This document shows positions 28,112 to 49,362 of a stretch of 53,179 nt of DNA, in pieces. Source of the DNA: an uncultured Alphaproteobacteria bacterium (lineage in GTDB: Bacteria; Pseudomonadota; Alphaproteobacteria; UBA8366; JADFVY01); the NCBI GenBank assembly GCA_947259795.1, contig CAMYNJ010000126.1, positions 1-53,179 of the forward strand, in the 5' to 3' direction. Each line of letters opens with the position of its first letter. The stretch's first letter is position 1. The position numbers and the translations under genes were made by a program. The notes below the pieces were generated by a model. That model was not told the origin of the DNA. It made no database searches and worked only from the letters and a program-made list of their open reading frames with translations.

Positions 28112-28126
28112 TTAAATCCCGGTTAA
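28112..28126. promoter_or_regulatory. CtrA-binding box (TTAA-N7-TTAA), perfect match
   Basis: TTAA at 28112-28115 and TTAA at 28123-28126 are separated by exactly seven bases. It is 82 bases upstream of the start of the CheY-like gene read on the minus strand. The consensus is that of CtrA in Caulobacter and relatives, and ctrA itself lies 3 kb away. Confidence 0.75.
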
Positions 28127-28309
28127 TTCCGATGCAATTCGATGTCGATTAACGAAATCGCCGCGACGCAGGCCCCGGCGCGACCGGTCGAACATACAGA
28201 CAATAAACAGACAGATTTACGGAAAGGCAACAGGTGGCACGGAAAAAAGACGAAAAGAGGAACCAAAGTCAAAGACTGTCCGATCGCCCCGTTCATTTCC
28301 AGTTATCTG

Positions 28310-28726
28310 TCAATCGTCACGGTGAGTGCGTTCCATGCGTTCATGACGCTCCTGGGCTTCCAGGCTCAGTGTTGCGATTGGTCGCGCTTCCAGTCGGCGC
28401 AGCGAGATCGGCTCGTTCGTCTCCTCGCAATAGCCGTAACTTCCCTCATCGATCCGACGCAAGGCTTCGTCGATCTTGGAAATCAGTTTCCGTTCCCGGT
28501 CGCGGGTCCTCAATTCAATGGCCCGATCGGTTTCCCTGGTCGCCCGGTCTGCAAGATCGGGTTCCGCGAGATTTTCATTTTGCAGGCTGCTCAGCGTCTC
28601 GCTGGATTCGTCAAGCAGTTCAGCCCGCCAGTGCAGCAGCTTCTGCCGGAAATATTCCAGCTGCATCGGGTTCATGAACTCTTCGCCATCGCTGGGTTTA
28701 TAGTCAGGAGGAAGAAGAGGTGACAT
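28310..28726 (-). CDS. dksA: DksA-family RNA polymerase-binding factor with reduced zinc-finger cysteines
   Basis: A 138-residue DksA. The coiled-coil tip motif DLADRA (DxxDxA, D57, D60 and A62) that reaches the polymerase secondary channel is intact, as is ELRTRDRERKLISKI. The C4 zinc site of E. coli DksA is replaced: counting C-x2-C-x17-C-x2-C from C100 gives C, T103, S121 and A124, so only one cysteine remains (YGYCEETNEPISLRRLEARP). This resembles zinc-independent DksA proteins known from other bacteria. It should work with ppGpp to adjust rRNA and amino acid gene transcription. A near-perfect CtrA box lies 82-96 bases upstream. Confidence 0.9.
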   Translation of the reverse strand: MSPLLPPDYKPSDGEEFMNPMQLEYFRQKLLHWRAELLDESSETLSSLQNENLAEPDLADRATRETDRAIELRTRDRERKLISKIDEALRRIDEGSYGYCEETNEPISLRRLEARPIATLSLEAQERHERMERTHRDD

Positions 28727-28807
28727 GCGGGGCTCCCTATAACACGCCTGTTTCTGAGTGCGCGGAGTATATGTATCGAGTGCCCTTACATCAAGCGCAA
28801 ATAAATG

Positions 28808-28822
28808 TTTATTTTCAGTTAA
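28808..28822. promoter_or_regulatory. CtrA-like box (TTTA-N7-TTAA) upstream of dksA
   Basis: TTTA at 28808-28811 and TTAA at 28819-28822 are separated by seven bases: one mismatch to the consensus. It lies in the 138-base AT-rich gap between dksA and the diguanylate cyclase gene, upstream of dksA. CtrA control of dksA would be unexpected, so this is a prediction only. Confidence 0.45.
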
Positions 28823-28864
28823 TTACGTAGAAGATGCCGAATCTCTCCGGGTTCCCGCCCAGGC

Positions 28865-29764
28865 TCAGGCCACACGACCGGGGTTGATATCGGAGGCCAG
28901 TGCTGCACGGCCGGGTCCGCCGGATCTGGCCTCGAACATCATTCTGTCGGCACTAGCAACCAACGATGCTGCTTCGGCCAGGGGCTGGTCGGCGACCGCG
29001 GCGCCGACGCTGGCGGTTACGGCAACCGTCTCGCCGTTGACCGAAATCGGCTCGGCAACGCGATCGACGACGTGCCGGGCCACTTTCAGCGCGTCTTCCG
29101 GCGCGCGCAGATTTTCCAGAATGATGCCGAATTCATCACCACCAAGCCGCGCAGCAACATCGCTGGTCCTGATGGAATCCCTCAGTCTGCGGGCGATTTC
29201 GACCAGGACATCGTCGCCGGCATCGTGGCCAAGCTGATCATTGACCTGCTTAAAGCCATCCAGATCGATATAAAGCAGGCCAAGCCAGCCGTCTGTCCTG
29301 CCCAGACGCGCATTAGCCATTTCCAGCGTATCGCGAAACATCAGGCGATTGAACAGGTTGGTCAGGTGATCGTGGCGGGCCAGATGCGACAATTCCAGGT
29401 TCCGGTTCGTAAGATCCGTCTTCAGGCGGAACCAGAAGGTAACGTCGTGAAGAAGATACAGCACCACTGCACGGCCGTCGTGGCTGAACGATGCGGCCGA
29501 CATGGTGTAAAAACGGGAAGAGTCATCTTTACCCGCCAGACGATAGCAGTCGGCGCCGGGGGCGGATCGTCCGGCATCGTCGGATACGCAAGGTTCGATC
29601 AGATCGGAAAGCGCGCGACCGGAAATATCGGCTCGGGAACATTGCAGCAGCGCCAATGCCTGCGGGTTCGCGTCCAGAACGCGCAGATCCCGGGCATCTA
29701 CCAGTAAGGCCGCGGATTCATGGGCAACGCCTTCCCTGCCGGTGGAAAAGAATGATGTTTCCAT
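28865..29764 (-). CDS. PAS-GGDEF diguanylate cyclase
   Basis: A 299-residue protein. Residues ~15-110 are a PAS-like domain (AALLVDARDLRVLDANPQAL ... AVVLYLLHDVTF). Residues ~125-290 are a GGDEF domain with LARHDHLTNLFNRLMF, the intact active site GGDEF at 208-212, and the inhibitory RxxD site at 199-202 exactly five residues before it. It should make cyclic di-GMP from two GTP and be product-inhibited. No membrane helix is present, so it is cytoplasmic. The ATG at 29764 has GGAGGA 11 bases upstream, a little far. It is the only GGDEF protein in the window with a canonical catalytic motif. Confidence 0.9.
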   Translation of the reverse strand: METSFFSTGREGVAHESAALLVDARDLRVLDANPQALALLQCSRADISGRALSDLIEPCVSDDAGRSAPGADCYRLAGKDDSSRFYTMSAASFSHDGRAVVLYLLHDVTFWFRLKTDLTNRNLELSHLARHDHLTNLFNRLMFRDTLEMANARLGRTDGWLGLLYIDLDGFKQVNDQLGHDAGDDVLVEIARRLRDSIRTSDVAARLGGDEFGIILENLRAPEDALKVARHVVDRVAEPISVNGETVAVTASVGAAVADQPLAEAASLVASADRMMFEARSGGPGRAALASDINPGRVA

Positions 29765-30126
29765 GACGTTGCTGTTCCTCCCGGCACCTTTCCTGGCCAC
29801 GTCTCTTCCCTTGTTTTTTCCGCAAGCCGCACCTGCCCGGCAACAGGACAGATTTCGTATACAAGACGCGGAAAATTCTATCATTTGCCGGAACCGCGGT
29901 AAACCGGCGCATAGAGCGCACCGCAAAACTTCCCGGAAAGGCGAGGCCGGGCGCTTGTGCCTGTTCGTGGTCCGGTGATTTAGCCATTTCTTAAGCGTTT
30001 AGCGCAATATTGGGAACCGGTCGCGGGCACCAGAACGGATCGCCCTCGATCGAATCAACAGACCGGAACATTTTTCGCACCTTTTTCGTTCAAGATTCAT
30101 ATTTCAGGAATACGGGCCATAAACAC
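29765..30126. other. Divergent intergenic region between the diguanylate cyclase and sciP
   Basis: These ~360 bases contain no convincing gene. Seen features are a CtrA half-site TTAA at 29991-29994 and a GATTC (GANTC, CcrM-type) site at 30094-30098, 29 bases before the sciP start. Promoters for both flanking genes must lie here, but I could not define clear -35/-10 pairs. Confidence 0.5.
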
Positions 30127-30360
30127 ATGACCTTAGACGATCTGCCAGCACCGAACACTAAACGCTGGGTCATCCGCAGGAAGGCCCAGGTCGTCGTGGC
30201 CGTCCGTTCGGGCGTCCTCAGTCTCAATGATGCCTGCAGCCGGTATAATCTTTCGATTGAGGAATTCCTGTCGTGGCAACGCCTGATCGACCGGCATGGC
30301 ATCGGCGGTCTGCGCGCGACCCGAATCCAGCAATATCGCGAAATCGGAGAAGGCCCTTAG
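30127..30360 (+). CDS. sciP: CtrA inhibitor SciP (DUF1153 family)
   Basis: A 77-residue helix-turn-helix-like protein with the SciP family sequence PAPNTKRWVIRRKAQVVVAV, LSLNDACSRYNLSIEEFLSW and GLRATRIQQY. In Caulobacter, SciP binds CtrA on DNA and blocks its recruitment of RNA polymerase, resetting CtrA-driven genes in G1. The length and conserved basic first helix are as expected. I start at the ATG at 30127; a longer in-frame extension from 30010 does not match the family. The gene lies 860 bases from ctrA in the same direction, with a FliJ-like gene on the other strand between them. Confidence 0.93.
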   Translation: MTLDDLPAPNTKRWVIRRKAQVVVAVRSGVLSLNDACSRYNLSIEEFLSWQRLIDRHGIGGLRATRIQQYREIGEGP

Positions 30361-30420
30361 GCAATCCCGCCGATGCGTGGATACCTTTGACGAAACAGCC
30401 GGCCAGATAATCCGACAAGA

Positions 30421-30459
30421 CAAAAAGGCCGCCAGGCAGAAGCCGGTGGCCCTTTTTGT
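30421..30459. terminator. Bidirectional terminator between sciP and the FliJ-like gene
   Basis: An A-rich arm and GC stem at 30421-30433 pair, with one bulge and one mismatch, with 30445-30458, which ends in a T-run. A-tract and T-tract on opposite sides let it act in both directions, serving the convergent sciP and FliJ-like genes. Confidence 0.75.
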
Positions 30460-30473
30460 TGGCTGTCTCGCTG

Positions 30474-30842
30474 TCAGCCGCGCTGTGCCCGAACGATTCG
30501 GATATGTTCGACCTGGCCGCGGCCGCGGCCCTTGCCGATCGCAACGGGCACTCGGTCGTAACCGTCGCGTACGTTCTCGCTCTCCGCGAGAAAAGCGCGC
30601 GCGGCCTCCATCGCGATTTCCGTTTCTCGAATCTGCCGATCGATATCGTCGAGCGATATCTGAAGCGTGGCGCGACGCGTTTCCCCCGGTCCGTTGGCGC
30701 CATGATTGCCCAACGGGCTGGAGGCCAGGCGGTCGAGCGAAGACTCGATATGCTGCCTGAGTTCGGTGAGATCTCTTAGCTTGCGGCGCTTTTCGCTATA
30801 TTCGAATTTGCGCGCCTGAATTTCACGCTCGCGAACGGTCAT
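30474..30842 (-). CDS. Small coiled-coil protein, possibly FliJ-like
   Basis: A 122-residue highly charged protein. Residues ~1-45 (REREIQARKFEYSEKRRKLR) and ~65-95 (SLDDIDRQIRETEIAMEAAR) form two heptad-rich helices broken by a Gly/Asn-rich turn (SPLGNHGANGPGE), the plan of the flagellar export chaperone FliJ, an antiparallel coiled coil. Length is slightly short for FliJ and no fliI lies next to it, so the assignment is tentative. An AGGGA ribosome site precedes the ATG. It converges on sciP at a shared terminator and diverges from ctrA. Codon pattern favours this strand over the competing plus-strand frame. Confidence 0.5.
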   Translation of the reverse strand: MTVREREIQARKFEYSEKRRKLRDLTELRQHIESSLDRLASSPLGNHGANGPGETRRATLQISLDDIDRQIRETEIAMEAARAFLAESENVRDGYDRVPVAIGKGRGRGQVEHIRIVRAQRG

Positions 30843-31222
30843 GATAATGCTATCCCTGTAATATCAGGAAGGGCTTGCAGACGATATCGGGAAAAAGGGT
30901 TGCCCCCGGCCCGGCGGAATAATGCCGCCATATCCGAGGTAACGCTCCATTCCCTATGGTGACTGCAATCCAACTTCAAAACCAACATTGAATGTCCGAC
31001 CGCGCTTCCTGTCGACAATTCGACCGGAGCACACGGCCCCCAAAAATTTTCCTGCCCTTTGAATTTCAACCCTCGGGTTTGAAATATCGAGTGATTCTGC
31101 CCTGTATTTTTTAATATCCGGTAAAAAAAGGGCACATAAGCTTGATCTCTTAAGAAAGCCTTTACATTTTTTAATCAAAATGGTTAACCGATGGTACTGG
31201 ACCCCCGCAGGAGAGGATAATA
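30843..31222. other. Divergent regulatory region between the FliJ-like gene and ctrA
   Basis: These 380 bases have no gene. The ctrA-proximal half is AT-rich against a GC-rich background. Seen features: an imperfect TTTCAACCC/GGG-t-TTGAAA dyad at 31064-31084, a GATTC (GANTC methylation-type) site at 31093-31097, a CtrA-like box at 31150-31164, TTAA at 31171-31174 and TTAACC at 31184-31189, and GGAGAGG before the ctrA ATG. This density resembles the multi-promoter ctrA control region of Caulobacter; exact promoters are not resolved. Confidence 0.6.
31150..31164. promoter_or_regulatory. CtrA-like box upstream of ctrA (TTAA-N7-TTTA)
   Basis: TTAA at 31150-31153 and TTTA at 31161-31164 have the seven-base spacing of the CtrA site with one mismatch, 58 bases before the ctrA start. 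Autoregulation of ctrA is established in Caulobacter; here it is predicted. Confidence 0.6.
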
Positions 31223-31957
31223 ATGAGAGTTCTTCTTGTTGAAGACGATACTTCGGTAGCCAACAGCATCGTGACGATGCTTCGCTCGGAAGGATTCGTC
31301 GTCGATACGACGGACCTGGGTGAAGATGGCCTGGAAATCGGAAAAATATATGATTACGATATTATTCTTCTCGATTTGATGCTGCCGGATATCGACGGGT
31401 ACGAAGTTCTTCACCGGCTTCGTGCAGCCAAGGTCGACACCCCCATTCTGATCCTTTCGGGGCTGACCGATATGCAGCACAAGGTCAAGGGTCTTGGCAT
31501 CGGCGCCGACGACTATCTGACCAAACCCTTCCACAAAAGCGAGCTTGTCGCGAGAATCCAGGCCATCATTCGGCGTTCCAAAGGACATTCCCAGTCGGTT
31601 ATCACGGCGGGCCGCCTGTCGGTCAATCTGGATACCCGCACCGTGGAAATCGACGGTCAGCCGGTCCATCTTACCGGCAAGGAATATGCGATCCTCGAGC
31701 TGCTGGCGCTGCGCAAGGGAACGACGCTGACCAAGGAAATGTTTTTGAACCACCTCTATGGCGGGATCGACGAACCGGAACTGAAGATCATCGACGTGTT
31801 CGTGTGCAAACTCCGCAAGAAGCTCTCTTCGGCAACGGGTGGCGAAAACTATATCGAAACCGTCTGGGGCCGTGGCTACGTCCTGCGGGAGCCGAACATA
31901 GCGCCCATGGACAATTCGGAGCCGGACAAAGCGCAACCGGACGAAATCACCGCCTGA
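31223..31957 (+). CDS. ctrA: Cell-cycle response regulator CtrA
   Basis: A 244-residue OmpR-type regulator. The receiver has MRVLLVEDD, phospho-acceptor Asp51 ([16 protein letters not shown]) and TKPFHKSEL; the winged-helix DNA-binding domain covers ~125-225 with [20 protein letters not shown] and [16 protein letters not shown], near-diagnostic of CtrA. It is phosphorylated by ChpT, whose gene is 6 kb away, and in this class controls flagellar, chemotaxis and cell-cycle genes by binding TTAA-N7-TTAA. The C-terminal tail ([14 protein letters not shown]) is longer than in Caulobacter and ends Thr-Ala rather than Ala-Ala, so ClpXP-dependent turnover may differ. It has its own promoter region and a strong terminator. 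Confidence 0.97.
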
Positions 31958-31989
31958 GCGGACAATGCAAACGGGCGTTGCCCGATAAC

Positions 31990-32030
31990 AAAAAGGCCGG
32001 CCATCGTCGATGGGCCGGCCTTCTTGTTTG
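31990..32030 (+). terminator. Rho-independent terminator of ctrA
   Basis: A long GC stem (about 31993-32005 with 32009-32022, one bulged base) has a 3-base loop and flanking A- and T-rich runs. It follows the ctrA stop by ~36 bases and may also serve the convergent cheR. Confidence 0.88.
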
Positions 32031-32075
32031 CCTTGGAGGCAATGTTTCCACGTCCCGGCGGAGACAATTCAGCCT

Positions 32076-32942
32076 TCAAATGTTGGAGGCGTAATTTGCC
32101 GGCGCCATGCCCTGGCCGCCACCGCCGCCACGGACGCAACAATACATGCCGCGATGTTCATTGACCGGCTGGAATTTCTCAGTCACGCCCATGACCGTCT
32201 CGGCGCCGCCCATATAGAGCACGCCGTCCTCCGGCATCAGCTTCGAGACATTTTCCAGCACGCGGGTCTTGGTCGGCGGATCGAGATAGATCAGCACATT
32301 GCGGCAGAATACGATATCAAACTGTCCCTTCGAGGTCGGATCGTTCAACAGGTTGAATTCATCGAATTCGACCATGCTTCGGATCGCCGGGTCGATTTCC
32401 CACTTGTCGCCTGCCTGCTGGAAATATTTCATCAACATGGCGATCGGCAGGCCGCGCTGCACCTCGAACTGGGTGTAGAGGCCGGCCCTAGCCTTGTCCA
32501 GCATGGCACGGGAGATATCAGTCGCATGGATATCGATGCGCCAATTATCCAGGATGCTGCCCATACCCTTGAGAATCATAGCGATGGAATATGGTTCCTG
32601 GCCGCTTGAGCAGGCGGCACTCCAAATCCGGATATGCCGCCGCTCCCGGCGGCTTTCCAGCAACCGCGGCAGAACCACCTTCTCTAACTGTTCGAAGGGG
32701 GTCTGATCCCTGAAGAACAAGGTTTCGTTGGTAGTCATGGCTTCCGTTATCTCTCTTAACAATTCTTCGTTGGGTCCGCCGCGCACCGTAGCCGCCAACC
32801 CGTCAATATCGTTCATGCCCCATTTGCGGGCGACCGCCATGAGACGGTTCTCGAGCAAGTAGGCCTTGTCGGGCGAAAGTGTCAGGCCCGATCGGCTTTT
32901 GACGATGCCACAAAGCAACTCGAAATCTTCGGCCTTTATCAT
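32076..32942 (-). CDS. cheR: Chemotaxis protein methyltransferase CheR
   Basis: A 289-residue SAM-dependent enzyme that methylates glutamates on chemoreceptors. The N-terminal helical domain (KAEDFELLCGIVKSRSGLTL) is followed by motif TTNETLFFRDQTPFEQL, SAM site IWSAACSSGQEPYSIAM, ATDISRAMLDKARAGLY and FDIVFCRNVLIYLD. The C-terminus has a glycine-rich tail (RGGGGGQGMAP). Its ATG overlaps the cheB stop by 4 bases, so receptor methylation and demethylation enzymes are made together. It is the last gene of the cheA-cheY-cheB-cheR run. The in-frame upstream extension inside cheB is not real. Confidence 0.95.
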   Translation of the reverse strand: MIKAEDFELLCGIVKSRSGLTLSPDKAYLLENRLMAVARKWGMNDIDGLAATVRGGPNEELLREITEAMTTNETLFFRDQTPFEQLEKVVLPRLLESRRERRHIRIWSAACSSGQEPYSIAMILKGMGSILDNWRIDIHATDISRAMLDKARAGLYTQFEVQRGLPIAMLMKYFQQAGDKWEIDPAIRSMVEFDEFNLLNDPTSKGQFDIVFCRNVLIYLDPPTKTRVLENVSKLMPEDGVLYMGGAETVMGVTEKFQPVNEHRGMYCCVRGGGGGQGMAPANYASNI

Positions 32943-34210
32943 GCGGCGCTCCGCATGATGAATTTGCGGACATGCCCGCCGATCTGGTCGACCGGCAGCA
33001 CCGCGCTGCAAAGGCCCCGGGTCGCCACCGCGCCCGGCATGCCCCAGACGACGCTCGTCAATTCGTCCTGCGCAATAACCGTGCCACCGGCGTCGACGAC
33101 AGCCTGGCTGCCCAGCATGCCGTCGGAACCCATTCCCGTCATAATAACGGTAAGAATACGGCTGCCATATAATTCCACCACGCTTCGCAGCATGGGGTCG
33201 ACCGCCGGCCGACAGAAATTCACCGGCGAGTCCTGATTCGTCGCGATCACGGTCCGGTCGTTGCGAACCGTGAGCAGCATGTGATAGTCGCCGGGCGCAA
33301 TGTAGACCCGGCCGCGTTCGACAGCCTCGCCATCCTCGGCTTCCTTGCAGGGAAGGCCCGACGCCCGGCTGGCATGCTCAGCCAGAATTTTGGTGAAGGT
33401 CGGCGGCATATGCTGGGTAATCAGGATCGGCACCCCCGGATTGGGGCCGATATCGCGAAGTATCTGGAACAGCGCCTGCGGGCCGCCGGTCGAACTGCCG
33501 ATCGTGATAATCTCCGGCCGTGTCTTGCCGGCTGCCCTGAGAACGATTTCCTTGGGCTCGGCCTTGGTAAAAATCCGGGCATCGTCCATTGCCTGGGTGC
33601 TGCGCTCGATAACGCGCACTTTCGGACGCCCCGGGCGAACCGACGGGCGATATTGACGGTCCGAGGGACGGGAGGACGGCTTGTAGTCCGGGCTCGGTGC
33701 AATTCGTCGTGGCGGCGCCGCTGCCGCCGATCTGGCGGGACGGGCCGATTCCCGATTCGCATAACCCAGGGCGATGACCTTCTCGACAAGTTGGCGATTG
33801 AACGCCTCCATCGAACCCAGCCCATGCGCGCTGGTCGGTTTGGTCAGATAATCGGCGGCGCCTCGTTCCAGGGCCTTCAGCGAAATCTCGGCATTCTTTT
33901 CGGTTAGCGTGGACGCAACGATAACCTGAATGTTGGGCCTGGCTTCCAGCAGCAGCGGCAAGGCGGTCAACCCGTCCATTCGCGGCATTTCAATATCGAG
34001 TATGACCACGTCGACCGGAGTCCGGCGCAAGGCGTTGATCGCCATCTGCCCGTCACTGACGGACGATACGACCTCGACATCCGGCTGCGTTTCCAGCAGC
34101 CGCGTCAAAAGCCCGCGGACGACCGAAGAATCGTCCACGATCATAACGCGCAGCGGCTTATCCTCGCCGGTATCGCCCTGTCCGGTTCCTGTTGACGCGT
34201 CTTTCGTCAT
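32939..34210 (-). CDS. cheB: Chemotaxis response regulator and glutamate methylesterase CheB
   Basis: A 423-residue protein. The receiver (20-135) has Asp72 in VVILDIEMPRMDGLTALPLL. A long Pro/Arg/Ser-rich linker (~155-225) is unusually extended compared with E. coli CheB (349 residues). The methylesterase domain has the catalytic triad: Ser in IGSSTGGPQAL, His in ITQHMPPTFTKILAEH and Asp in TGMGSDGMLG. It removes methyl groups and deamidates glutamines on chemoreceptors after phosphorylation by CheA. Its start shares one base with the cheY stop (TAATG) and its stop overlaps cheR. Confidence 0.96.
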   Translation of the reverse strand: MTKDASTGTGQGDTGEDKPLRVMIVDDSSVVRGLLTRLLETQPDVEVVSSVSDGQMAINALRRTPVDVVILDIEMPRMDGLTALPLLLEARPNIQVIVASTLTEKNAEISLKALERGAADYLTKPTSAHGLGSMEAFNRQLVEKVIALGYANRESARPARSAAAAPPRRIAPSPDYKPSSRPSDRQYRPSVRPGRPKVRVIERSTQAMDDARIFTKAEPKEIVLRAAGKTRPEIITIGSSTGGPQALFQILRDIGPNPGVPILITQHMPPTFTKILAEHASRASGLPCKEAEDGEAVERGRVYIAPGDYHMLLTVRNDRTVIATNQDSPVNFCRPAVDPMLRSVVELYGSRILTVIMTGMGSDGMLGSQAVVDAGGTVIAQDELTSVVWGMPGAVATRGLCSAVLPVDQIGGHVRKFIMRSAA

Positions 34211-34575
34211 TAAAGCAGGCCTACCTGGGAAAACTTGCTTTGAATGATTTCGCTATCGAACGGCTTCATGATGTACTCATCTGCGCCGGCCTTGATGGCT
34301 TCCTGGATATGCTCCAGATCGTTCTTGGTCGTGCAGAACACCACCTTGGGCTTTTCCCCGCCGGGGAGTTGCCGCAAGGCGTAAAGGAATTCGAGGCCAT
34401 CCATGACCGGCATATGCCAGTCCAGGAGAACTGCGTCGGGCATTACCTGGTTGCAGCAATCAATGGCAGCCTGGCCGTCCTCCGCCTCCACGACATCGAA
34501 CTCCAGTTCTTCCATAATTTTGCGTGCGACCATTCGAATAACCCGCGAATCATCGACCACGAGGCAGGATTTCAT
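34210..34575 (-). CDS. cheY: Chemotaxis response regulator CheY
   Basis: A 121-residue single receiver: KSCLVVDDSRVIRMVARKIM, Asp52 in DAVLLDWHMPVMDGLEFL, Thr in VFCTTKNDLEHIQEAI and Lys in IMKPFDSEI. It should be phosphorylated by CheA and act on the flagellar motor, or act as a phosphate sink, since this genome has more than one CheY. I start at the ATG at 34575 (GCGGAG just upstream); a TTG two codons earlier is possible. It is second in the cheA-cheY-cheB-cheR operon, 177 bases after cheA, with the cheB start coupled to its stop. Confidence 0.94.
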   Translation of the reverse strand: MKSCLVVDDSRVIRMVARKIMEELEFDVVEAEDGQAAIDCCNQVMPDAVLLDWHMPVMDGLEFLYALRQLPGGEKPKVVFCTTKNDLEHIQEAIKAGADEYIMKPFDSEIIQSKFSQVGLL

Positions 34576-34752
34576 CTCCAACTCCGCTCAGTAATTAGAG
34601 GTCCAGTCTTTTCCGACAAATTCAAACTATTACCTGTCCACGAGAACATCTATCTTTTTTCCTTCAGCCCTTGCGGACTACCCTTGGCCGGAAAACCCGG
34701 AAGGTCATCTCGGCCCGTACAAAAGGCGGGCCACAAATCGCCAGTGACCCGA

Positions 34753-37425
34753 TTATTCGTCATCCACGCCCGCCAAATCAGGGTAGAGCGTGGTTTCCAG
34801 CGTGCGGAGCAGGGTATCGCGGTCGAATTTGCCGACATAGTCGTCAAATCCGACGTCGTGCCCGCGCTGCAAATGATCGATGGAGGTGTAAGCCGAAAGC
34901 GCGATAAGGGGCACATGCGCCCAGCGTTCGCTGGCCCGCGCCGCCTGTGCGAACTCGAAGCCGTTCATGCCCGGTAGCTCGATATCGCTGAGAATGATAT
35001 CGAAGTCGCGGCCATCCTCATAAAGTTCCATTGCACGGTCCGCCGAGTCCACCGTGGTCACGACATAGCCGGCGACAGAAAGCAGCGGGGACAGCAGGTT
35101 ACGGAAGAATGCGCTGTCGTCGATCAGTAGCACGCGGCTCTTGCGTCGGCTCTGCTCTAGGGTCGTGGTCTCGCCGCCATGCGGCACGAACCAGTCGCCA
35201 TAGGCCTGGGTCAGATAGTAGCTGGTGTCGACGATATCGGTGGCTTCGCCGTCGATGATGGCGCTACCCAGCATGCCCGGACGCTCGGTGGTCAGTTCGA
35301 TCGACAACCGATCCTCGACGATGTCGACGATCTCGTCCACCAGCAGGCCCATCGAACGGTCGCGGTCGGCGAAGACGATCGCCGACTGGCGGCCGGTCCG
35401 CGAAATTTCGCCATCTGCACGCAGCGGCAGCAAGGGCATCAGCCCACCGCGATACTGCACGACCAGTTGGCCGTTGGAGATTTCGACCTCGTCCAGATCG
35501 ATTTCCTCGAGGCGCGCCACAAGCGCCAGCGGCACCGCCATCGGGGTGTCGTCGCCGGCATGGAACAGCAGCAGCGGCACGCGGTCGTCGGAGTCCTCGT
35601 CCGCCTGGGCCGCGATCTCGGCCGCTGCGGTTTCGGCGACCGTGATTTCGCCGATATCCGAGGCGATGCCGTTCGGGTCCAGGATCATGATGACGCTGCC
35701 GTCGCCAAGAATCGTGTTGCCCGAGAACAGCGTGATGTTCCTGAGCAGCGAGGACACCGGCTTGACGACGATTTCCTCTGTATCGAACACCCTGTCGACG
35801 ATGATGCCGAACGAGAAATTGCCGACCTGGGTGACGATCACAAAACGATCCTCCTCGATCGTTTCCGCCTCGACGCCCAGCCTGAGCTGATGGCGCAGCG
35901 AGGTCAGCGGCAGCAGACGGTTGCGCAGGCGCAGCACCGGTGTCCCGTGAATGTCCTCGATGCGGTATTCGCTGCCGCGGCCGGTGCGGACCAGCTCCAC
36001 GACGCTGATCTGCGGCACCGCAAAACGCTCGCCTCCGGCCTCGACGATCAGCGCCGAGACGATCGCCAGGGTCAGCGGGATCTTGATGATGAAGGTCGTG
36101 CCGCGGCCTTGCAACGATTTCAGCTCGATGGTGCCGCCGATCTTCTCGATATTGGTCTTGACCACATCCATGCCGACGCCGCGACCCGAAACGGAGGTCA
36201 CGTTCGCCGCGGTCGAGAATCCGGCGCGCATGATGAATTGCTGGATGGCCTGGTCGGACATGACGTCCAGCTCGGCCTCCGTGGCCAGCCCCAGGGCCAG
36301 CGCCTTGCCCTTGATCTTGTCGACCGACAGGCCTTTGCCATCATCGGTAATCTCGATGATGATATGACCACCCTCATGAAACGCGTTGAGGGTGATCGTG
36401 CCGGTTTCCGGCTTACCAGAGGCCCGGCGTTCCGCCGGCTGTTCGATGCCATGGTCGCAGGAATTGCGTACCATATGGGTCAGCGGGTCGCGGATCAACT
36501 CCAGGACCTGCCGGTCCAATTCGGTCTCTGCGCCGACCATCTGCAGGTTGACCTTCTTGGACAGTTCCAGCGAAACGTCGCGCACGATGCGCGGCAACTT
36601 GGCCCAGGCATTCCCGATCGGCTGCATGCGGGTCTTCATGACGCTTTCCTGCAGCTCGGTGGTAACATGGCTGAGACGCTGCAACGGCGTTGAAAATTCG
36701 CTGTCGTCGCGTGCGCGCAGGATCTGCAGCAGCTGGTTGCGGGTCAGCACCAGTTCCGACACCATGGTCATCAGGTTTTCCAGAAGATCGACGCTGACGC
36801 GGATCGTCTGGTTGGCGACGCCGGTGCCGCCCGTCTGTTCTTCGCCGATGTCCGCCGACAGGCCGGTCTGGCTCACCGTCGAAGGAACCTGCTCGAAAGT
36901 CGTTTCGGAATGGTCCTCTTCCGGATCGGCGGCTTGCACAAGCGCGTCCTTGCCGGAATATCGGGCGGCATCGAAAGCCGCTTGCAGTTCAGCGGAATCC
37001 GAGGCGACCTCGGTAATATCCTCATTGCTCAACATGGCTTCCATCACCGCATCTTCGGCGAAGGATTCCAGTTGACTGATCAGGTCGTTGTCATCACCCT
37101 CGGGCTCGGTGCCGGTCTTTTCGAGTTCCTTGAGCAAGGCCTTGATTCGGTCGAGGGATTCGAGCACCAGCGACACCGCCTTCGGCGTCACTTCAAGCTC
37201 GCCGTCGCGGAAGCGGGCAAACAGGCTTTCAGCAGCGTGCGCTACACCTTCCAGCCGCGGCAAACCAAGGAACCCGCAAGTTCCCTTGACGGTATGAACC
37301 AGGCGAAAGATATTGCCCAACAACTCCGGATCATTGGGATTTTGTTCCAGCTTGACCAACTCGACGTCGAGAACATCCATGTTCTCTGCGGTTTCGGTCA
37401 AAAATTCATTCAAAAGGTCGTCCAT
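34753..37425 (-). CDS. cheA: Chemotaxis histidine kinase CheA with two CheW-like domains and a receiver
   Basis: An 890-residue kinase. Domain order: HPt (1-115) with His44 in RLVHTVKGTCGFLGLPRLEG; an acidic linker in place of P2; dimerisation P3 (LLENLMTMVSELVLTRNQLL); ATPase P4 (VRNSCDHGIEQPAERRASGK, DDGKGLSVDKIKGKAL, SGRGVGMDVVKTNIEKIGG); CheW-like P5 (ERFAVPQISVVELVR); a second CheW-like domain (~630-750, VPLLLFHAGDDTPMAV); and a C-terminal receiver (~770-885) with Asp in DIILSDIELPGMNGFEF. It links chemoreceptors to CheY and CheB. The extra CheW and receiver domains are common in alphaproteobacterial CheA. It starts 169 bases after chpT, with a CtrA-like box in the gap. Confidence 0.95.
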   Translation of the reverse strand: MDDLLNEFLTETAENMDVLDVELVKLEQNPNDPELLGNIFRLVHTVKGTCGFLGLPRLEGVAHAAESLFARFRDGELEVTPKAVSLVLESLDRIKALLKELEKTGTEPEGDDNDLISQLESFAEDAVMEAMLSNEDITEVASDSAELQAAFDAARYSGKDALVQAADPEEDHSETTFEQVPSTVSQTGLSADIGEEQTGGTGVANQTIRVSVDLLENLMTMVSELVLTRNQLLQILRARDDSEFSTPLQRLSHVTTELQESVMKTRMQPIGNAWAKLPRIVRDVSLELSKKVNLQMVGAETELDRQVLELIRDPLTHMVRNSCDHGIEQPAERRASGKPETGTITLNAFHEGGHIIIEITDDGKGLSVDKIKGKALALGLATEAELDVMSDQAIQQFIMRAGFSTAANVTSVSGRGVGMDVVKTNIEKIGGTIELKSLQGRGTTFIIKIPLTLAIVSALIVEAGGERFAVPQISVVELVRTGRGSEYRIEDIHGTPVLRLRNRLLPLTSLRHQLRLGVEAETIEEDRFVIVTQVGNFSFGIIVDRVFDTEEIVVKPVSSLLRNITLFSGNTILGDGSVIMILDPNGIASDIGEITVAETAAAEIAAQADEDSDDRVPLLLFHAGDDTPMAVPLALVARLEEIDLDEVEISNGQLVVQYRGGLMPLLPLRADGEISRTGRQSAIVFADRDRSMGLLVDEIVDIVEDRLSIELTTERPGMLGSAIIDGEATDIVDTSYYLTQAYGDWFVPHGGETTTLEQSRRKSRVLLIDDSAFFRNLLSPLLSVAGYVVTTVDSADRAMELYEDGRDFDIILSDIELPGMNGFEFAQAARASERWAHVPLIALSAYTSIDHLQRGHDVGFDDYVGKFDRDTLLRTLETTLYPDLAGVDDE

Positions 37426-37527
37426 CACCCTTATCCAGTACACTCAGCTGCTGAGACGTTCGATCCAAGGGGCATGTCAGCCACCCTTACTGACAAACCG
37501 GTACAGACGCAGCTTTTCATGCAATGT

Positions 37528-42613: not shown

Positions 42614-43615
42614 GTGGCAAGCAAGACAGAAAAGAGCAGCCGAACGGGAAACAGGCCGAGCAGGAGCGGGGCAAACAAGCCGAAGACCACCCGGAACAAG
42701 GCGAAGGCAAAAGCCGCGGCGACGGCGATCGAAACAGCTGTTGCCGGGCGTGCCGGACCCGGGCGCCAGAATAAGGCGGGGCTTGCGCTGATTGCCGCCA
42801 GCCTGTTCGCCGTCATGGCGGCAGGGGCCCTGCTTGGTCCGGACCCGTTGACAGGCGCCGCCCAGTGGGTCCGCAAGGGTCTTATTCAGGCGTCTTATGC
42901 GGTTCTGCTGGCCCTATTCGCCTGGATCGTCCTGCGCCGCCGCCGGGAGATATCCTATCTGCTGTTGCTGGGTATCATATGTGCGGGCATAGCCGCCTGG
43001 GATACCGGGGCCGGAATCTACGCCAGCCGCCTCCGGCTGGAAGCCAACAAAACGTTGATTACCCTTCGCGATGCACCCTTGAATGTCGAGGGATTGGCCG
43101 AAACGATCGAGCGCAATCCCTATGTCGAGGCCTACATTGTGATGCGCGACGTCTACTGGGAATTCGGCAACAGGCTGGACGACCGCATTGCCAGGTATGG
43201 CGCCAGTTACAAAAGCTATGTCGGCAGCGGCGCCTTTCTGGATACCGGGCGGCTTCGATCCCGGTTGGAATTGTGGCGCACCTTCTATCAAATCAGCGAT
43301 CTTGAACGTCAGTTGGCGCAGATCGAGAGCGAGCCCGTAAAGGCCGACGACCTGCTGTGGACGGTAAATCTGCTGGATGTGGATACCGCGACGCGCGAGG
43401 CTTATGCCCAGGATCTACAGGATACCATTTCGGCCGCAGCCGGTTCACAGGCGGAACTGATCGCCCGCGAGCGGCGGACATTGGCGCGAATCAAGCGGTC
43501 ATTGCAGGTTCTGATAGACGCAGAGGGCCGTTACCGTATTACCGATGGAAGAGTGGTGTTCGAAGACCCGGCCGATGCCGCACTTTTCGCGGGCGAGGAA
43601 ACGCCGGCGGACTAA
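42614..43615 (+). CDS. Membrane protein of unknown function
   Basis: A 333-residue protein that I do not recognise. The first ~55 residues are rich in Lys, Arg, Ala and Ser (TEKSSRTGNRPSRSGANKPK) and should be cytoplasmic. Three hydrophobic helices follow at ~56-76, ~92-108 and ~113-131, then a ~190-residue soluble domain with EANKTLITLRDAPLNVEGLA and helical segments such as LRSRLELWRTFYQISDLERQ. The start is a GTG; 98 bases separate it from the receiver gene. The soluble domain may face the periplasm. It lies between the kinase module and mobA, read in the kinase direction. No function can be proposed. Confidence 0.7.
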   Translation: MASKTEKSSRTGNRPSRSGANKPKTTRNKAKAKAAATAIETAVAGRAGPGRQNKAGLALIAASLFAVMAAGALLGPDPLTGAAQWVRKGLIQASYAVLLALFAWIVLRRRREISYLLLLGIICAGIAAWDTGAGIYASRLRLEANKTLITLRDAPLNVEGLAETIERNPYVEAYIVMRDVYWEFGNRLDDRIARYGASYKSYVGSGAFLDTGRLRSRLELWRTFYQISDLERQLAQIESEPVKADDLLWTVNLLDVDTATREAYAQDLQDTISAAAGSQAELIARERRTLARIKRSLQVLIDAEGRYRITDGRVVFEDPADAALFAGEETPAD

Positions 43616-43645: not shown

Positions 43646-44263
43646 TCACCCCGATGCGGCCAGAATTCGCTCAGCCTCGGCCAGGTCTTCGGGACGGTTG
43701 GCGTTGAAGAAAGGGTCGACAGGGTCAGTCGGCCAGTCCGCCACGGCCAGCTTGTAGCGTGCCGTCCAGATATCGACCTTGCGGATATCCTCGTCCAGCA
43801 TGGCGCGGCGCAAATCACCGGCCAGCCACACCGGCCACAGACCGCAAACCGGATGGTGGCGACCGCCGGAAGAAGCACAGGCCATGTCGGCCCCCTCGCG
43901 TTCCACCGCCGCCAGCAGGCGCCGGACGAGATCGCGGGGCAGGAATGGCGCATCGGTCGGCGCCGTCACAATCCAGGAACAATCAGGGGCATTCGCCCTG
44001 GTCCATTCCATACCGGTCAGAACACCGGCCAGTGGCCCAGCATGACCTTCGATAATGTCTGCGGCCACCGGCAGGCCGAAACCCGCAAACCGGGCCGGAT
44101 CGCCATTGGCGTTCAGCAGAAGTCGGGCAACCTGCGGTTCGACATGCGCGATAACCCGCGCCAGAATCGATTGCCCGCCCAGATCGCGCAGCATCTTGTC
44201 CTGTCCGCCCATGCGGCGGGACAGCCCACCCGCCAGCAGCACAGCAACGACCTCGCCGTTCAT
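43646..44263 (-). CDS. mobA: Molybdenum cofactor guanylyltransferase MobA
   Basis: A 205-residue enzyme that transfers GMP to molybdopterin, giving the guanine dinucleotide cofactor used by enzymes such as formate dehydrogenases. The nucleotide-binding loop is [18 protein letters not shown], and [20 protein letters not shown] plus [11 protein letters not shown] (the metal-binding Asp) are family motifs. [15 protein letters not shown] is the usual C-terminal end. It lies next to the degenerate GGDEF cluster and on the same strand as fdhD; with moaA this makes a loose molybdoenzyme maturation region. Confidence 0.96.
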
Positions 44264-44360: not shown

Positions 44361-44933
44361 CTAGGCCAAATCGGGCGACCAGATACAGTTCCTGTTGCCG
44401 GCGATGCGGCCCGCTTCCATCGCCTTTTCAGCCCGATTGATCAGCTCCTGCACGGGGCTGCCATCCATCAGGGAGGCGCCAAGCGAAACCGTTACCGCGA
44501 GGTCGAGCCCGTTGCCCGGCATTTTGAACGGCATGCGCACGACGATGTCGTGCAGCCGCTGCAGCACTGCCGTGGCCTCCTCCGGCTTGACATGGGGAAG
44601 ACCGATCAACAGCTTTTCCCGGCCATGTCGAAATATCTTGTCGTAGGAACGCAGGCTGACGGCGAACCGGTCGGCAATTTCACCAACCGTAAGCTCCAGG
44701 GCCGCCCCATCGATCGGATTGGGCGCGCAGACCGCAACGCAGCAATAACTATTGCCGTCGGCGACCTTATTACGCGCGCTCTCCAGCCACTGGACCATTT
44801 CGACTATATTGTCGATGATCGGCAGCGGCCCGGCCATCTCCTTGCGTTCACCGAATTCGAATCCGGCAGGAGCGTTTGCGCCAGCGCTTCCGTCTGCGTC
44901 GACCTGCGTCCGGGGCGTCCCGAAAATGCCCAT
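44361..44933 (-). CDS. Degenerate GGDEF-domain protein, paralog 1 of 4
   Basis: A 190-residue protein with a diverged GGDEF domain over ~60-185. The catalytic motif is replaced by GREKL in LRSYDKIFRHGREKLLIGLP, so no cyclase activity is expected. The fold is supported by LQRLHDIVVRMPFKMPG and AVTVSLGASLMDGSPVQELI, matching the late GGDEF helices. It begins MGIFGTPRTQVDADG and ends CIWSPDLA, sharing the LR(S/P)YD box and the W-S/T ending with three neighbours. The ATG at 44933 has AAGGAAC about 10 bases upstream. It is the last gene of the array, 170 bases after the CZB-containing gene. It may bind nucleotide or partners instead of acting as an enzyme; that is inference. Confidence 0.75.
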   Translation of the reverse strand: MGIFGTPRTQVDADGSAGANAPAGFEFGERKEMAGPLPIIDNIVEMVQWLESARNKVADGNSYCCVAVCAPNPIDGAALELTVGEIADRFAVSLRSYDKIFRHGREKLLIGLPHVKPEEATAVLQRLHDIVVRMPFKMPGNGLDLAVTVSLGASLMDGSPVQELINRAEKAMEAGRIAGNRNCIWSPDLA

Positions 44934-45103
44934 GGTCCAAGTTCCTTTTTCGCTCTGGTGTCCCGTTTCCACATCCGCGAACACTCCCGGCACCGGGCAC
45001 AAATCCATGGATGCGTGTTCATTCTGCCAGACTATTCGTAAAGGATTGGTTTCCTGCCGCGAGGCAGTGGGAAGGGGCGGCGCCATATGTGCGGTGGACA
45101 ACG

Positions 45104-46027
45104 CTAGTTTTCCAGCGCGGCCGACCAGACGACGATTCGCTCACCCTTTGCGCTGCCGGCCATGTTGGCCGCGCGCGACGCCCGGTCCAGCACTTCCTGG
45201 ACGGGGCTCTTCGAATCCGACAGCGAAATGCCGAAACGGGCAGCGACGGTCGCTTCACCGTCGTCCGACAGGCTGACGGGGCTCTCTCCCAGCAATTCGT
45301 CCAGCCGCTTGGCGAGCGTTTCGGCGCGCGCGCGGTCGGTGCCCGGTGCACAGATCAAAAACCCTGCGCGTCCATAGCGGAATACCGAATCATAAGGCCG
45401 CAAGTGGGAGAACAGCCGCGCCGCCAGGCTGGCGATAACGCGGTCGGTACCGATCTGGCCATAGGTCTGCGAGACCGCGTCCAGTCCGTCAGGCCGAACC
45501 ATGATCAGGCTCATGGGGCTCCCCGTTCGCGCCGTGCGCTCCCATTCGCGCTCGAGCTCCGACATCATGGTCAGGCGGCTTTGCAACTCCGCAAGCTCCT
45601 CGTCGGCAACCACGGCTCCCTCCTCGGGCTTGCCGTGAAGCTCCTGAACGCGGACCGCAATCTTGCGGAACTTGTCGGCCACATCCATCATCGCATCGTA
45701 TTCGTCCGGCGGGAGCGATTCGCCCGCCGCGAGCCTGCCCATCAGATAGCGCGCCGCATCATGGACCTCGCGATGCATTTGGCCGAGATCGGCGAACAGT
45801 TTCCCCTCCAGCATCCCGGTGGCGCTGTGATACCGGAACCAGCGGCCGAAATGGCAGGTCAGGTGGGCATCCTCGTCGGTATCAATGTCGGCCGGCGGCA
45901 AGGCGCACAGCGCCGCGCGCTGCCATGCGGCAAGCCAGCATTCATGTTCCAGGATGGCATCGGCGACTGCCGCCGGTATGTCGCGCGAGATGATATCCGC
46001 GGATTGCGTATCGCCCTTGCCGGTCAT
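45104..46027 (-). CDS. CZB zinc-binding domain fused to degenerate GGDEF, paralog 2 of 4 (DgcZ-like architecture)
   Basis: A 307-residue protein. The N-terminal domain (~20-100) is a CZB domain: predicted zinc ligands H28, C58 (CHFGRWF), H85 and H89 have spacings 30, 27 and 4, identical to H22, C52, H79 and H83 of E. coli DgcZ. The C-terminal domain (~150-300) is a GGDEF fold (LEREWERTARTGSPMSLIMV, SVFRYGRAGFLICAP) where the catalytic box is GRAGF, so cyclase activity is probably lost. It ends VVWSAALEN. It lies 22 bases after paralog 3 and is likely co-transcribed. A zinc or redox sensor without its own c-di-GMP synthesis is the likely reading. Confidence 0.8.
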   Translation of the reverse strand: MTGKGDTQSADIISRDIPAAVADAILEHECWLAAWQRAALCALPPADIDTDEDAHLTCHFGRWFRYHSATGMLEGKLFADLGQMHREVHDAARYLMGRLAAGESLPPDEYDAMMDVADKFRKIAVRVQELHGKPEEGAVVADEELAELQSRLTMMSELEREWERTARTGSPMSLIMVRPDGLDAVSQTYGQIGTDRVIASLAARLFSHLRPYDSVFRYGRAGFLICAPGTDRARAETLAKRLDELLGESPVSLSDDGEATVAARFGISLSDSKSPVQEVLDRASRAANMAGSAKGERIVVWSAALEN

Positions 46028-46049
46028 CGCCCCTACAGGTCGCTCCAGG

Positions 46050-46589
46050 TCAGAGTTGCGGGGTCCACATGCAGATGCTGTCGCCCATGCCCTTCAGCGC
46101 CCAGTCATGCGCCTCGGACGCGCGATCCATATGTTCATGCAACGGCGCCGTCGAGTCCACTATTGTTGCACCGAACGAGGCTGTGACCATTGCTTTACCG
46201 TCGCCGGCGATGGGAAACGGTTCCCCTATGACCTGGGTGCGGAGGCGCTTTATGACACCGACCGCATTTTCACGGCCGACCCGCGGCAACATTACGAGAT
46301 ACTTGTCGTCGGCGAAACGGTAAATTGCGTCGTAGGATCGCAGCTTTGCCGCAAACCGCCTGCCGAAGGCGTCCATCACCTTGGCTGCGTTATCGCCGTC
46401 CGGGCTGACCACGCAGATACAACTGGATTCGTGGGTCTGGCGAATCCGGTCCAGTTCCCCCCTCAGCCCCGTCACGATCGCCACCGGATCGTTGTCGACC
46501 ACCGCCGGCCCGCTGTCGTCGCGGACCAGTCCGTATGATGCGCCATTCGCAGCCGCGACACCTTCCGTTCTTTCGCCAAAAGCCCGCAT
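46050..46589 (-). CDS. Degenerate GGDEF-domain protein, paralog 3 of 4
   Basis: A 179-residue protein that is mostly a GGDEF-like domain. The conserved box is LRSYDAIYRFADDKYLVMLP, with ADDKY at the GGDEF site, lacking the catalytic glycines and glutamate. Later segments MVTASFGATIVDSTAPLHEH and DRASEAHDWALKG match GGDEF strands and helix, and it ends SICMWTPQL. The ATG at 46589 has AAGGAA about 9 bases upstream; in-frame 46625 is an alternative. The stop is 22 bases before the CZB gene start, so both share a transcript. Function is unknown; no other domain is present. Confidence 0.73.
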   Translation of the reverse strand: MRAFGERTEGVAAANGASYGLVRDDSGPAVVDNDPVAIVTGLRGELDRIRQTHESSCICVVSPDGDNAAKVMDAFGRRFAAKLRSYDAIYRFADDKYLVMLPRVGRENAVGVIKRLRTQVIGEPFPIAGDGKAMVTASFGATIVDSTAPLHEHMDRASEAHDWALKGMGDSICMWTPQL

Positions 46590-46727
46590 AAGTCCGTTTC
46601 CTTGACTGATTTTCGCGCCATTCATTGATTAGTAAACGGTCAAGGACGCAATTTATTCCGTCATTGGCTAAAATTTAAGGTAATTCCCGGTCTTCAGTGT
46701 AGGGGAACCAATCTTGGCGGCGCTCGC

Positions 46728-47285
46728 TCAGGTGACGTCGATATCGGGGGACCACAGACAGGCACTTCCCCCGCCATCGTGCCAGGCCTGGATACGCGCC
46801 TGGTCCGCGCGGTCGATATTGTTTCGCAGCGACATGGTCGGATCGATCATTGCGCCCCCGATGGACATCGCCACTCTGGTCGGCTCGGCGCCCGCGATCA
46901 CCAGCGGTTCGTCGGCGATCCGCATTCGCAGGCGATTCATTACCGTTACCGTATCTTCAGGCTTGATATACGCCAGCGATATCAGATAACGGTTCACGCC
47001 GAAGACAAAAAGGCCGTCATAGGGCCGCAGACTTCGAGAAAACCGCTCGCCCGCCGCCGCCAGGATTTCGGCTTCAGATACGCCCTCGGCTGAACGCGGT
47101 TTGGCGACCGCAATGCAGCAGGTTTTCTCGCCTCGTTCGACAGCTGCAAACTCCGCTTGCAGCACCCGCATCATTTCGGATTCGTTGCGCACGATTGGAA
47201 TCGGTGGCGGCGCCTGCCATTCGCCGTCGACCGTTTCAGGCATAGAGCCCCGCGGTCCCCTATTAAAGAATTTCGGTCCGGGCAT
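46728..47285 (-). CDS. Degenerate GGDEF-domain protein, paralog 4 of 4
   Basis: A 185-residue protein with the same plan: variable N-terminus (PGPKFFNRGPRGSMPETVD), then KTCCIAVAKPRSAEG, the box LRPYDGLFVFGVNRYLISLA with GVNRY at the GGDEF site, VAMSIGGAMIDPTMSLRNNI, and the ending CLWSPDIDVT. Catalytic residues are missing. The ATG at 47285 has GAAGGAA upstream; in-frame starts at 47342 and 47336 are possible. It is the first gene of the array in the direction of transcription, with 138 bases before paralog 3. It is most similar by eye to paralogs 1 and 3. Confidence 0.73.
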   Translation of the reverse strand: MPGPKFFNRGPRGSMPETVDGEWQAPPPIPIVRNESEMMRVLQAEFAAVERGEKTCCIAVAKPRSAEGVSEAEILAAAGERFSRSLRPYDGLFVFGVNRYLISLAYIKPEDTVTVMNRLRMRIADEPLVIAGAEPTRVAMSIGGAMIDPTMSLRNNIDRADQARIQAWHDGGGSACLWSPDIDVT

Positions 47286-47363: not shown

Positions 47364-48245
47364 CTAAAATGCCCCCTTTTCCATCGCGCCCTTGCGCGCG
47401 GCGGCCTTCGGTTCGTCCTCGACCGCCGCCCCATCGGCGTCGAACAGGATGCGGTCTTCGCCGGACAGCGCGATGAAGCGCTTGCCCCGGGCGCGGCCGA
47501 TCAGGGTAAGCCCGGCCTTGCGCGCAAGCTCCACCCCCCAGGCGGTGAAGCCGGAGCGCGATATCAGGATAGGAATGTCCATCTGCACCGCCTTGATGAC
47601 CATCTCCGAGGTCAGCCGGCCCGTAGTGTAGAAGATCTTGCCCGCGGCGGAGACACCCTCCATCGCCATATAGCCGGCGATCTTATCGATCGCGTTGTGG
47701 CGGCCGACATCCTCCATATAGATCAGCGGGCGGTCCTCCTCGCACAGCACACAGCCATGGATCGCACCGGCCGTGAGGTACAAGCTGGGCGCCGTGTTGA
47801 TCTTCCTGGTCAGGCCGTAAAGCCAAGAGGTCTTGAGGACCGCGTCTTGCGGCAGGCGGACCTCGTCGAACCGCTCCATCAGATCGCCGAAGACGGTTCC
47901 CTGCGCGCAGCCAGAGGTCAGGGTTTTCTTCTTCAGCTTCTCCTCGAAATTCGTCTTGCGCCGGGTGCGCACCACGACGGTCTCGATATCGTCGTCATAG
48001 TCGACGCCCGTGATCTCGTCGTCGGCGCGCAGCATGTTCTGGTTTATCAAGTAGCCGACGCCGAGATATTCCGGATGGTCGCCGATCGTCATCATGGTGA
48101 CGATTTCCTGGCCGTTGAGGAATAGCGTCAAGGGCCGCTCGACCACCACGCGGGTCTCGATCGGCTTCCCATCCTGGTCGATGCCGGCCACCGCTTCGGT
48201 CAGCCGCGCGTCTTCCGGGTCCGGTTTTACGACAAAATCATCCAT
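47364..48245 (-). CDS. fdhD: Formate dehydrogenase accessory sulfurtransferase FdhD
   Basis: A 293-residue protein that carries sulfur from a cysteine desulfurase to the molybdenum cofactor of formate dehydrogenases. Family motifs are YLINQNMLRADDEITGVD, EDVGRHNAIDKIAGYM, IFYTTGRLTSEMVIKAV and ISRSGFTAWGVELA. The flexible-loop motif, usually CxxC, is SGCAQGT with only the first cysteine. A separate CxxC occurs in AIHGCVLCEEDRP, which is not usual in the E. coli enzyme. I use the ATG at 48245; a longer start at 48302 has no support. It is divergent from moaA with 124 bases between the starts. No formate dehydrogenase genes are in the window. Confidence 0.93.
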   Translation of the reverse strand: MDDFVVKPDPEDARLTEAVAGIDQDGKPIETRVVVERPLTLFLNGQEIVTMMTIGDHPEYLGVGYLINQNMLRADDEITGVDYDDDIETVVVRTRRKTNFEEKLKKKTLTSGCAQGTVFGDLMERFDEVRLPQDAVLKTSWLYGLTRKINTAPSLYLTAGAIHGCVLCEEDRPLIYMEDVGRHNAIDKIAGYMAMEGVSAAGKIFYTTGRLTSEMVIKAVQMDIPILISRSGFTAWGVELARKAGLTLIGRARGKRFIALSGEDRILFDADGAAVEDEPKAAARKGAMEKGAF

Positions 48246-48369
48246 GGCCAGCAATATGCGCGCGGGGTGCGTCGACGGCAAGTCGCGGCCCAAAAACCGC
48301 ATTGAACGATGGGTAGATTGTCGCGGCGGCCTTCTGTAGGATAGGCTGCCGTTTCAAGGGAGCTGTTGC

Positions 48370-49362
48370 ATGAAAGACCCGTTCGACAGGGACGTCACCT
48401 ATTTGCGCGTGTCGGTTACCGACCGCTGCGACTTCCGCTGTGTCTATTGCATGGCCGAGGACATGACCTTCCTGCCCAAGAAGGACGTTCTGTCGCTGGA
48501 GGAGTTGGACCGGCTGTGCAGCGCCTTCGTGCGCCTCGGCGTGCGCAAGCTGCGGCTGACCGGCGGCGAGCCGCTGGTGCGCCGGAACATCATGTGGCTG
48601 ATCAACCGGCTGGGCGCACATCTCAAGACCGGCGACCTGGACGAATTGACGGTCACCACCAACGGCAGCCAGCTTGAGAAGATGGCGGACCAGCTTTACC
48701 AGGCCGGCATGCGCCGCATCAATGTTTCGCTGGATACGCTGGACCCGGAGAAATTCGTCGCGATCACCCGCTGGGGCAAGTTCGACAAGGTGATGGCGGG
48801 CCTCGATGCCGCCGACCGGGCGGGCCTGAAGGTCAAGATCAACGCGGTCGCGCTGAAGGGCGTCAACGACACCGAGTTCGACAATATGGTCGGATGGTGC
48901 GGCGAACGCGGCTACGACCTGACCTTCATCGAGGTCATGCCGATGGGCGACATGGGCGAGCATCAGCGGGTCGACCAGTATCTGCCGCTTTCCATGGTCC
49001 GCGCGGATCTGCAAAAGCGCTGGACGCTGGAGGATATCGACTACAACACCGGCGGCCCGGCCCGTTACGTGCGGGTCAGGGAGACCGGACATCGCATCGG
49101 CTTCATCACGCCGATGACCCACAATTTCTGCGAATCCTGCAACCGGGTGCGGCTGACCTGCACCGGCACGCTCTATATGTGCCTGGGCCAGGAGGATGCG
49201 GCCGACCTGCGCGCGCCGCTGCGCGCCAGCGAGTCCGACGAACTGTTGCAACAGGCGATTCTCGAGGCCATCGACCGCAAGCCCAAGGGACATGATTTCA
49301 TCATCGACCGCCGCAGCAGCAAGCCCGCCGTCAGCCGCCATATGAGCGTGACCGGGGGCTGA
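48370..49362 (+). CDS. moaA: GTP 3',8-cyclase MoaA
   Basis: A 330-residue radical SAM enzyme for the first step of molybdenum cofactor synthesis, using GTP and SAM. The N-terminal 4Fe-4S cluster motif is CDFRCVYC (C20, C24, C27). [17 protein letters not shown] and [12 protein letters not shown] are family motifs. The C-terminal cluster motif is [20 protein letters not shown], and the protein ends SVTGG, the two-glycine tail needed with MoaC. AAGGGAGC lies before the ATG. It is transcribed away from fdhD. Its length is normal. Confidence 0.97.

Follow-up and report, generated by a model that had tools for sequence, protein, structure and literature searches.

The fdhD–mobA interval and its genes

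The window (the whole stretch of DNA that was analysed, 53,179 nucleotides) is contig C126. It belongs to a metagenome-assembled genome that is incomplete (66% complete; 3.04 Mb, 164 contigs) and comes from a little-known family of uncultured alphaproteobacteria, referred to here as f1. The genome collection contains seven f1 genomes, which are metagenome-assembled where their titles are known. On the minus strand of the window, the interval between fdhD and mobA is filled by four consecutive genes, D, C, B and A. Directly upstream and co-directional is fdhD (47364..48302; PF02634, E = 5e-76), which encodes the formate dehydrogenase sulfurtransferase accessory protein; directly downstream and also co-directional is mobA (43646..44263; PF12804, E = 1e-36), which encodes molybdenum cofactor guanylyltransferase. 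The gene adjoining fdhD on its other side, and divergent from it, is moaA (48370..49362, plus strand), for the radical SAM enzyme of molybdopterin synthesis.

Paralogs A (44361..44933, 190 aa), C (46050..46589) and D (46728..47285) are standalone degenerate GGDEF proteins. Paralog B (45104..46027, 307 aa) is longer, as its degenerate GGDEF domain is preceded by an N-terminal CZB zinc-binding domain with the ligands H28, C58, H85 and H89 (3His/1Cys), for which the Pfam score is 29.2 against a cut-off of 29.4. The GGDEF box reads GREKL in A, GRAGF in B, ADDKY in C and GVNRY in D. Just ahead of it lies LRSYD in A (44640-44654) and C (46329-46343), and LRPYD in B (45389-45403) and D (47016-47030). 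A tryptophan close to the C-terminus is present in all four, within a WSP or WTP form in A (CIWSPDLA), C (CMWTPQL) and D (CLWSPDIDVT), and as WSA in B. Matches to Pfam GGDEF (PF00990) have E-values of 5e-12 (A), 1e-20 (B), 7e-7 (C) and 8e-5 (D), those of A–C being above the cut-off and that of D marginal, just under it. The sequence-only reading had described four same-strand GGDEF-fold genes between mobA and fdhD, with these four boxes, a shared LR(S/P)YD and a tryptophan-type tail in three or four of them; the open reading frames and the Pfam matches bear this out.

The starts of A, C and D were judged by ribosome-binding sites and orthologs. A starts at ATG 44933, with an AAGGAA site (a longer frame from TTG 45101 was rejected, since the extension is not conserved among orthologs); C starts at the conserved ATG 46589, also with an AAGGAA site, and has another ATG upstream at 46625; D starts at ATG 47285. 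From fdhD to mobA, the intergenic gaps are 78, 102, 22, 170 and 97 bases, if the start of C is taken as 46625, and such short gaps suit a putative operon. No Rfam family scored above cut-off anywhere in the window, and promoter and terminator scans of the window gave scores no better than those of shuffled sequences; control of the array by an RNA element or riboswitch was thus rejected.

On the plus strand beyond mobA, positions 42614-43615 encode a 333-aa hypothetical protein without a Pfam match, which stays beside mobA in f1 genomes at 36-54% identity. In genus g3, the gene for a formate dehydrogenase alpha subunit (L040:13545-16313) lies just past mobA and the 333-aa gene, which makes the g3 locus a cluster for formate dehydrogenase; the window lacks the alpha subunit gene at that place.

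A lost active site and a kept I-site

LR(S/P)YD is none other than the inhibitory site (I-site, RxxD) of diguanylate cyclases, and its spacing is canonical: the aspartate stands six positions ahead of the start of the old GGDEF box, exactly as in PleD, and in a profile alignment to PDB chains LRxYD falls on the RAID of PleD. For column statistics, PleD positions (in PleD residue numbering) were mapped onto an alignment of the 26 f1 members and 23 catalytic orthologs from sister families of the same order. The arginine and the aspartate of the I-site are each present in 26/26 f1 members, and the secondary I-site arginine (equivalent to R390 of PleD) in 24/26, the two exceptions being dispersed C-type copies.

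The active site is intact in 23/23 of the sister-family orthologs and broken in every f1 member. The metal aspartate, the second G of GGDEF, K442 and R446 each score 0/26; the FK position is lost; the ND position is substituted in B and deleted in A, C and D; and the GHxxGD position is likewise altered or deleted. Judged from these residues, the whole active site of A–D is gone, beyond the GGDEF box alone. The features of an active diguanylate cyclase (GG(D/E)EF, metal aspartate, substrate residues) are therefore found in none of A, B, C or D, and an active cyclase with an unusual box was rejected because the catalytic positions are missing. Three features of a degenerate-GGDEF I-site receptor are found: the GGDEF fold, the broken active site (26/26) and an intact RxxD at the canonical spacing (26/26). 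The GGDEF domain has 47 columns that are invariant in the 23 catalytic orthologs, of which 5 are invariant in all 26 f1 members, and the I-site arginine and aspartate are two of these 5 (chance 0.009).

The old active-site loop has acquired its own replacement in each ortholog group: GR[DEGN][KR][LI] in A, GR[AST]x[FY] in B, mostly AxDKY in C and mostly GPxx[YF] in D. These conserved group-specific boxes point to a new role for the loop.

The predicted structures agree with these assignments. An AlphaFold2 model of A, built from the family alignment, has a GGDEF fold with a mean pLDDT of 76 (the N-terminal 33 residues are of low confidence), and its best Foldseek matches are DosC and PleD. The model of B consists of a helical CZB domain and a GGDEF domain, with a mean pLDDT of 85, and its best Foldseek match is full-length DgcZ (4h54), over 279 columns.

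Descent from a CZB-GGEEF cyclase

The array is present in 6/7 f1 genomes, and among the 44 genomes of the order that were compared, standalone degenerate copies are limited to f1. The seventh f1 genome (G001, 96% complete) is without the array, fdhD, moaA and a homologue of the formate dehydrogenase alpha subunit. When D alone served as the query, no matches were obtained in the genome collection. In the tree, all 26 f1 proteins form one clade (support 97/94), within which B branches first and A, C and D together form one clade (100/99). Recruitment of unrelated GGDEF genes was rejected, as two further GGDEF proteins of the genome that holds the window fall outside this single clade. The ortholog groups A–D are common to the genera in the tree, which implies that the duplications predate the genera. 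The conservation of the array across three genera argues against chance. Its order varies: in genus g3 it is fdhD-D-B-A-mobA, with C located elsewhere, and in genus g2 there are two A-type copies upstream of fdhD.

In three other families of the order, the same slot is occupied by a single cyclase with a CZB domain and an intact GGEEF box. It is flanked by both fdhD and mobA in 21/24 loci; of the other three, one is cut off by a contig edge, and in the remaining two mobA is present, with no fdhD detected in the genome. No published name for this cyclase was found among the papers searched. From slot, ancestry and I-site, B is the direct counterpart of the cyclase, and differs from it in that the cyclase has an intact catalytic site, is present as a single copy and has mostly lost its zinc ligands. 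All four CZB zinc ligands are kept in B of 6/6 f1 genomes and in 1/23 of the sister cyclases. That one (L033) has both the catalytic site and the four zinc ligands intact, in the layout of DgcZ, and likely represents the ancestral state. The losses are mirror images: the sister cyclases keep catalysis and mostly lose the zinc site, B does the reverse, and the I-site is kept in both, a contrast that offers a direct test of the idea that the functional core which was conserved is the I-site.

The last strand of the sister cyclases reads GRNRLxLWS, with the tryptophan in 18/23 orthologs. Thus, the tryptophan tail of the paralogs is inherited rather than new, and the same holds for LRPYD, so that the shared boxes, which the sequence-only reading took as the hallmark of a dedicated family, come from an ordinary cyclase of the same slot. 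Its argument that decay would not preserve such boxes needs a corresponding change: decay is rejected, but the boxes are not novelties of the family, and the inference is valid only because the family lost its active-site residues and retained the I-site.

The fdhD-(CZB-GGEEF)-mobA arrangement is also present in one family outside the order (L083, L091), so the link between the cyclase and molybdenum genes is either older or was transferred. Within the order, outside f1, the cyclase co-occurs with fdhD (Fisher p 8e-5, a statistic weakened by gene linkage and shared ancestry). A literature search for fdhD, GGDEF and mobA together found no paper, and of the papers on fdhD and diguanylate cyclases none was recognisable, by title and abstract, as describing this arrangement. 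The linkage ties c-di-GMP genes to genes for the assembly of molybdenum enzymes.

Proposed receptors for c-di-GMP and the competing explanations

The reading that we favour, at a probability of roughly 0.7, sees in the array a set of I-site receptors for c-di-GMP that arose by lineage-specific radiation from a cyclase inactivated in place. As catalysis was lost but the c-di-GMP pocket was kept, A–D are probably dedicated signal receptors, and since RxxD and nearly always the secondary arginine are retained, each paralog should bind a c-di-GMP dimer. EAL proteins and proteins with canonical GGDEF boxes are encoded in the same genome, and c-di-GMP can therefore be expected in the cell. Gene content, loss of catalytic residues, retention of the I-site, a single origin, purifying selection and co-linearity with fdhD and mobA can be read from the sequence; binding of c-di-GMP by A–D is probable. 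The suggestion that the family might sense nucleotides is strengthened and sharpened, as the conserved box is the I-site for c-di-GMP.

The course of events was probably as follows. In the ancestor of the order, fdhD and mobA would have enclosed the gene of a DgcZ-like CZB-GGEEF diguanylate cyclase. In f1, this cyclase would have lost its active site and duplicated; the B copy would have kept the CZB zinc/redox sensor, and A, C and D, without a CZB domain and with the substrate-binding loop lost as well, would have become single-domain GGDEF folds. Each of A–D would bind an intercalated c-di-GMP dimer, which would alter its contacts with partners or its oligomeric state. As such changes are the only way in which a bare I-site domain can act, homo- or hetero-complexes bridged by c-di-GMP are expected, with B as their CZB-linked hub. 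DgcZ senses HOCl through a zinc-bound cysteine (PMC8262984); B may thus sense zinc or oxidants with an output other than synthesis, which sensing cannot control in B because the active site is lost. The output may fall on formate dehydrogenase or on maturation of the molybdenum cofactor. This is the least certain step: gene position, together with the co-occurrence with fdhD, suggests it, and the two sister genomes with the cyclase beside mobA had no detectable fdhD.

Degenerate GGDEF receptors are a known kind. CdgA of Bdellovibrio (box GVNEF) binds c-di-GMP (PMC3271064), PssE of Listeria (box DKDDA) does so with a Kd of 0.79 uM (PMC4125290), c-di-GMP binding has been shown for SgmT of Myxococcus, which has a degenerate GGDEF with the RxxD signature, and PopA of Caulobacter is a further precedent (both PMC3509222). 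Like the array, these four have a GGDEF fold, a broken active site and an intact RxxD before the box, and are conserved in relatives. Unlike the array, they are single genes, several of them with receiver, kinase or other domains; the array has four tandem paralogs at a molybdenum-cofactor locus, and A, C and D each consist of a GGDEF domain only, from which the substrate loop has been deleted. DgcZ (YdeH, Escherichia coli, 4h54) resembles B in its CZB and GGDEF layout and in all four 3His/1Cys zinc ligands, which among the paralogs only B has (6/6), and differs from it in that the active site of B is lost. What is new in f1 would be the tandem radiation, the loss of the substrate loop, the losses that mirror those of the sister cyclases, and the genomic context. 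It would amount to the conversion of a GGDEF enzyme into a receptor in place, with the catalytic form surviving at the same locus in sister families.

The alternative that fares best, though an improbable one, is that the GGDEF folds are non-signalling structural modules, serving only oligomerisation or as a scaffold (around the dimer of the CZB domain of B, for instance), with RxxD kept for stability of the fold. That A, C and D lack any other domain is compatible with this, and the conserved replacement box of each ortholog group suggests protein contact. RxxD was inherited from the ancestor, and its aspartate in particular may be structural. The RxxD arginine and the secondary arginine, however, have no obvious role in the fold and are nevertheless kept, whereas 42/47 of the ancestral invariant columns are not fully kept.

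Distinctly less likely is that the I-site pocket came to serve for a different guanine nucleotide: GTP, ppGpp or the bis-guanine molybdenum cofactor (bis-MGD), which MobA makes and FdhD handles. Both c-di-GMP and bis-MGD carry two guanines, the slot between fdhD and mobA persists in the order and in the one outside family, and there is the co-occurrence with fdhD; but that would arise from gene linkage alone, the catalytic orthologs of the same slot resemble ordinary c-di-GMP cyclases, and RxxD is a c-di-GMP signature. Just as unlikely is a specific form in which the array would consist of GGDEF-derived carriers or gatekeepers of the bis-guanine cofactor (or of c-di-GMP in competition with it) and would govern how the cofactor passes from MobA on to FdhD and to formate dehydrogenase. 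If true, this would be a direct biochemical link between the c-di-GMP signalling machinery and the maturation of molybdoenzymes.

More doubtful still is that the paralogs are copies of a diguanylate cyclase decaying under relaxed selection, in favour of which stand the active enzyme retained in sister families and, for D, its fast evolution and its truncation in G003. Pairwise dN/dS (NG86/YN00) was estimated within the genus; by NG86, A has about 0.08-0.13, B 0.12-0.19, C 0.13-0.24 and D 0.33-0.43, compared with 0.08-0.14 for the control genes fdhD, mobA and moaA; dS is near saturation, so these values are rough, and all are still far from 1. The orthologs are under purifying selection, strongly for A, B and C and weakly for D. 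The ratio near 1 that relaxed selection would give is thus not seen, and decay is also contradicted by the persistence of the ortholog groups in three genera, the long intact reading frames, the conserved boxes specific to each group and the invariance of the I-site. D is the fastest evolving paralog, and in G003 (L038:2493-3008) it ends early, before the tryptophan tail. Decay of A, B and C is already contradicted, and it could survive as an explanation for D only. The idea of a dedicated non-catalytic family is upheld by the single origin, by groups A–D across genera, by dN/dS well below 1 and by the absence of a working active site from every f1 member found; homologs with ordinary GGDEF motifs do occupy the slot in the sister families.

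Residual or combined catalysis, in which the paralogs complement each other or pair with an intact cyclase to make c-di-GMP, can virtually be dismissed: GGDEF domains do work as dimers, but every paralog lacks the metal aspartate, the substrate residues and K442/R446, and the half-sites therefore cannot be restored by any pairing.

Elsewhere in the window, a separate protein encoded on the minus strand (28868-29998) has an intact GGDEF domain (IRTSD...RLGGDEF) and is likely an active c-di-GMP synthase. Positions 23928-37443 hold a cluster of cell-cycle and chemotaxis regulators: a CckA-like kinase, CtrA, CheB and a CheA-like hybrid kinase.
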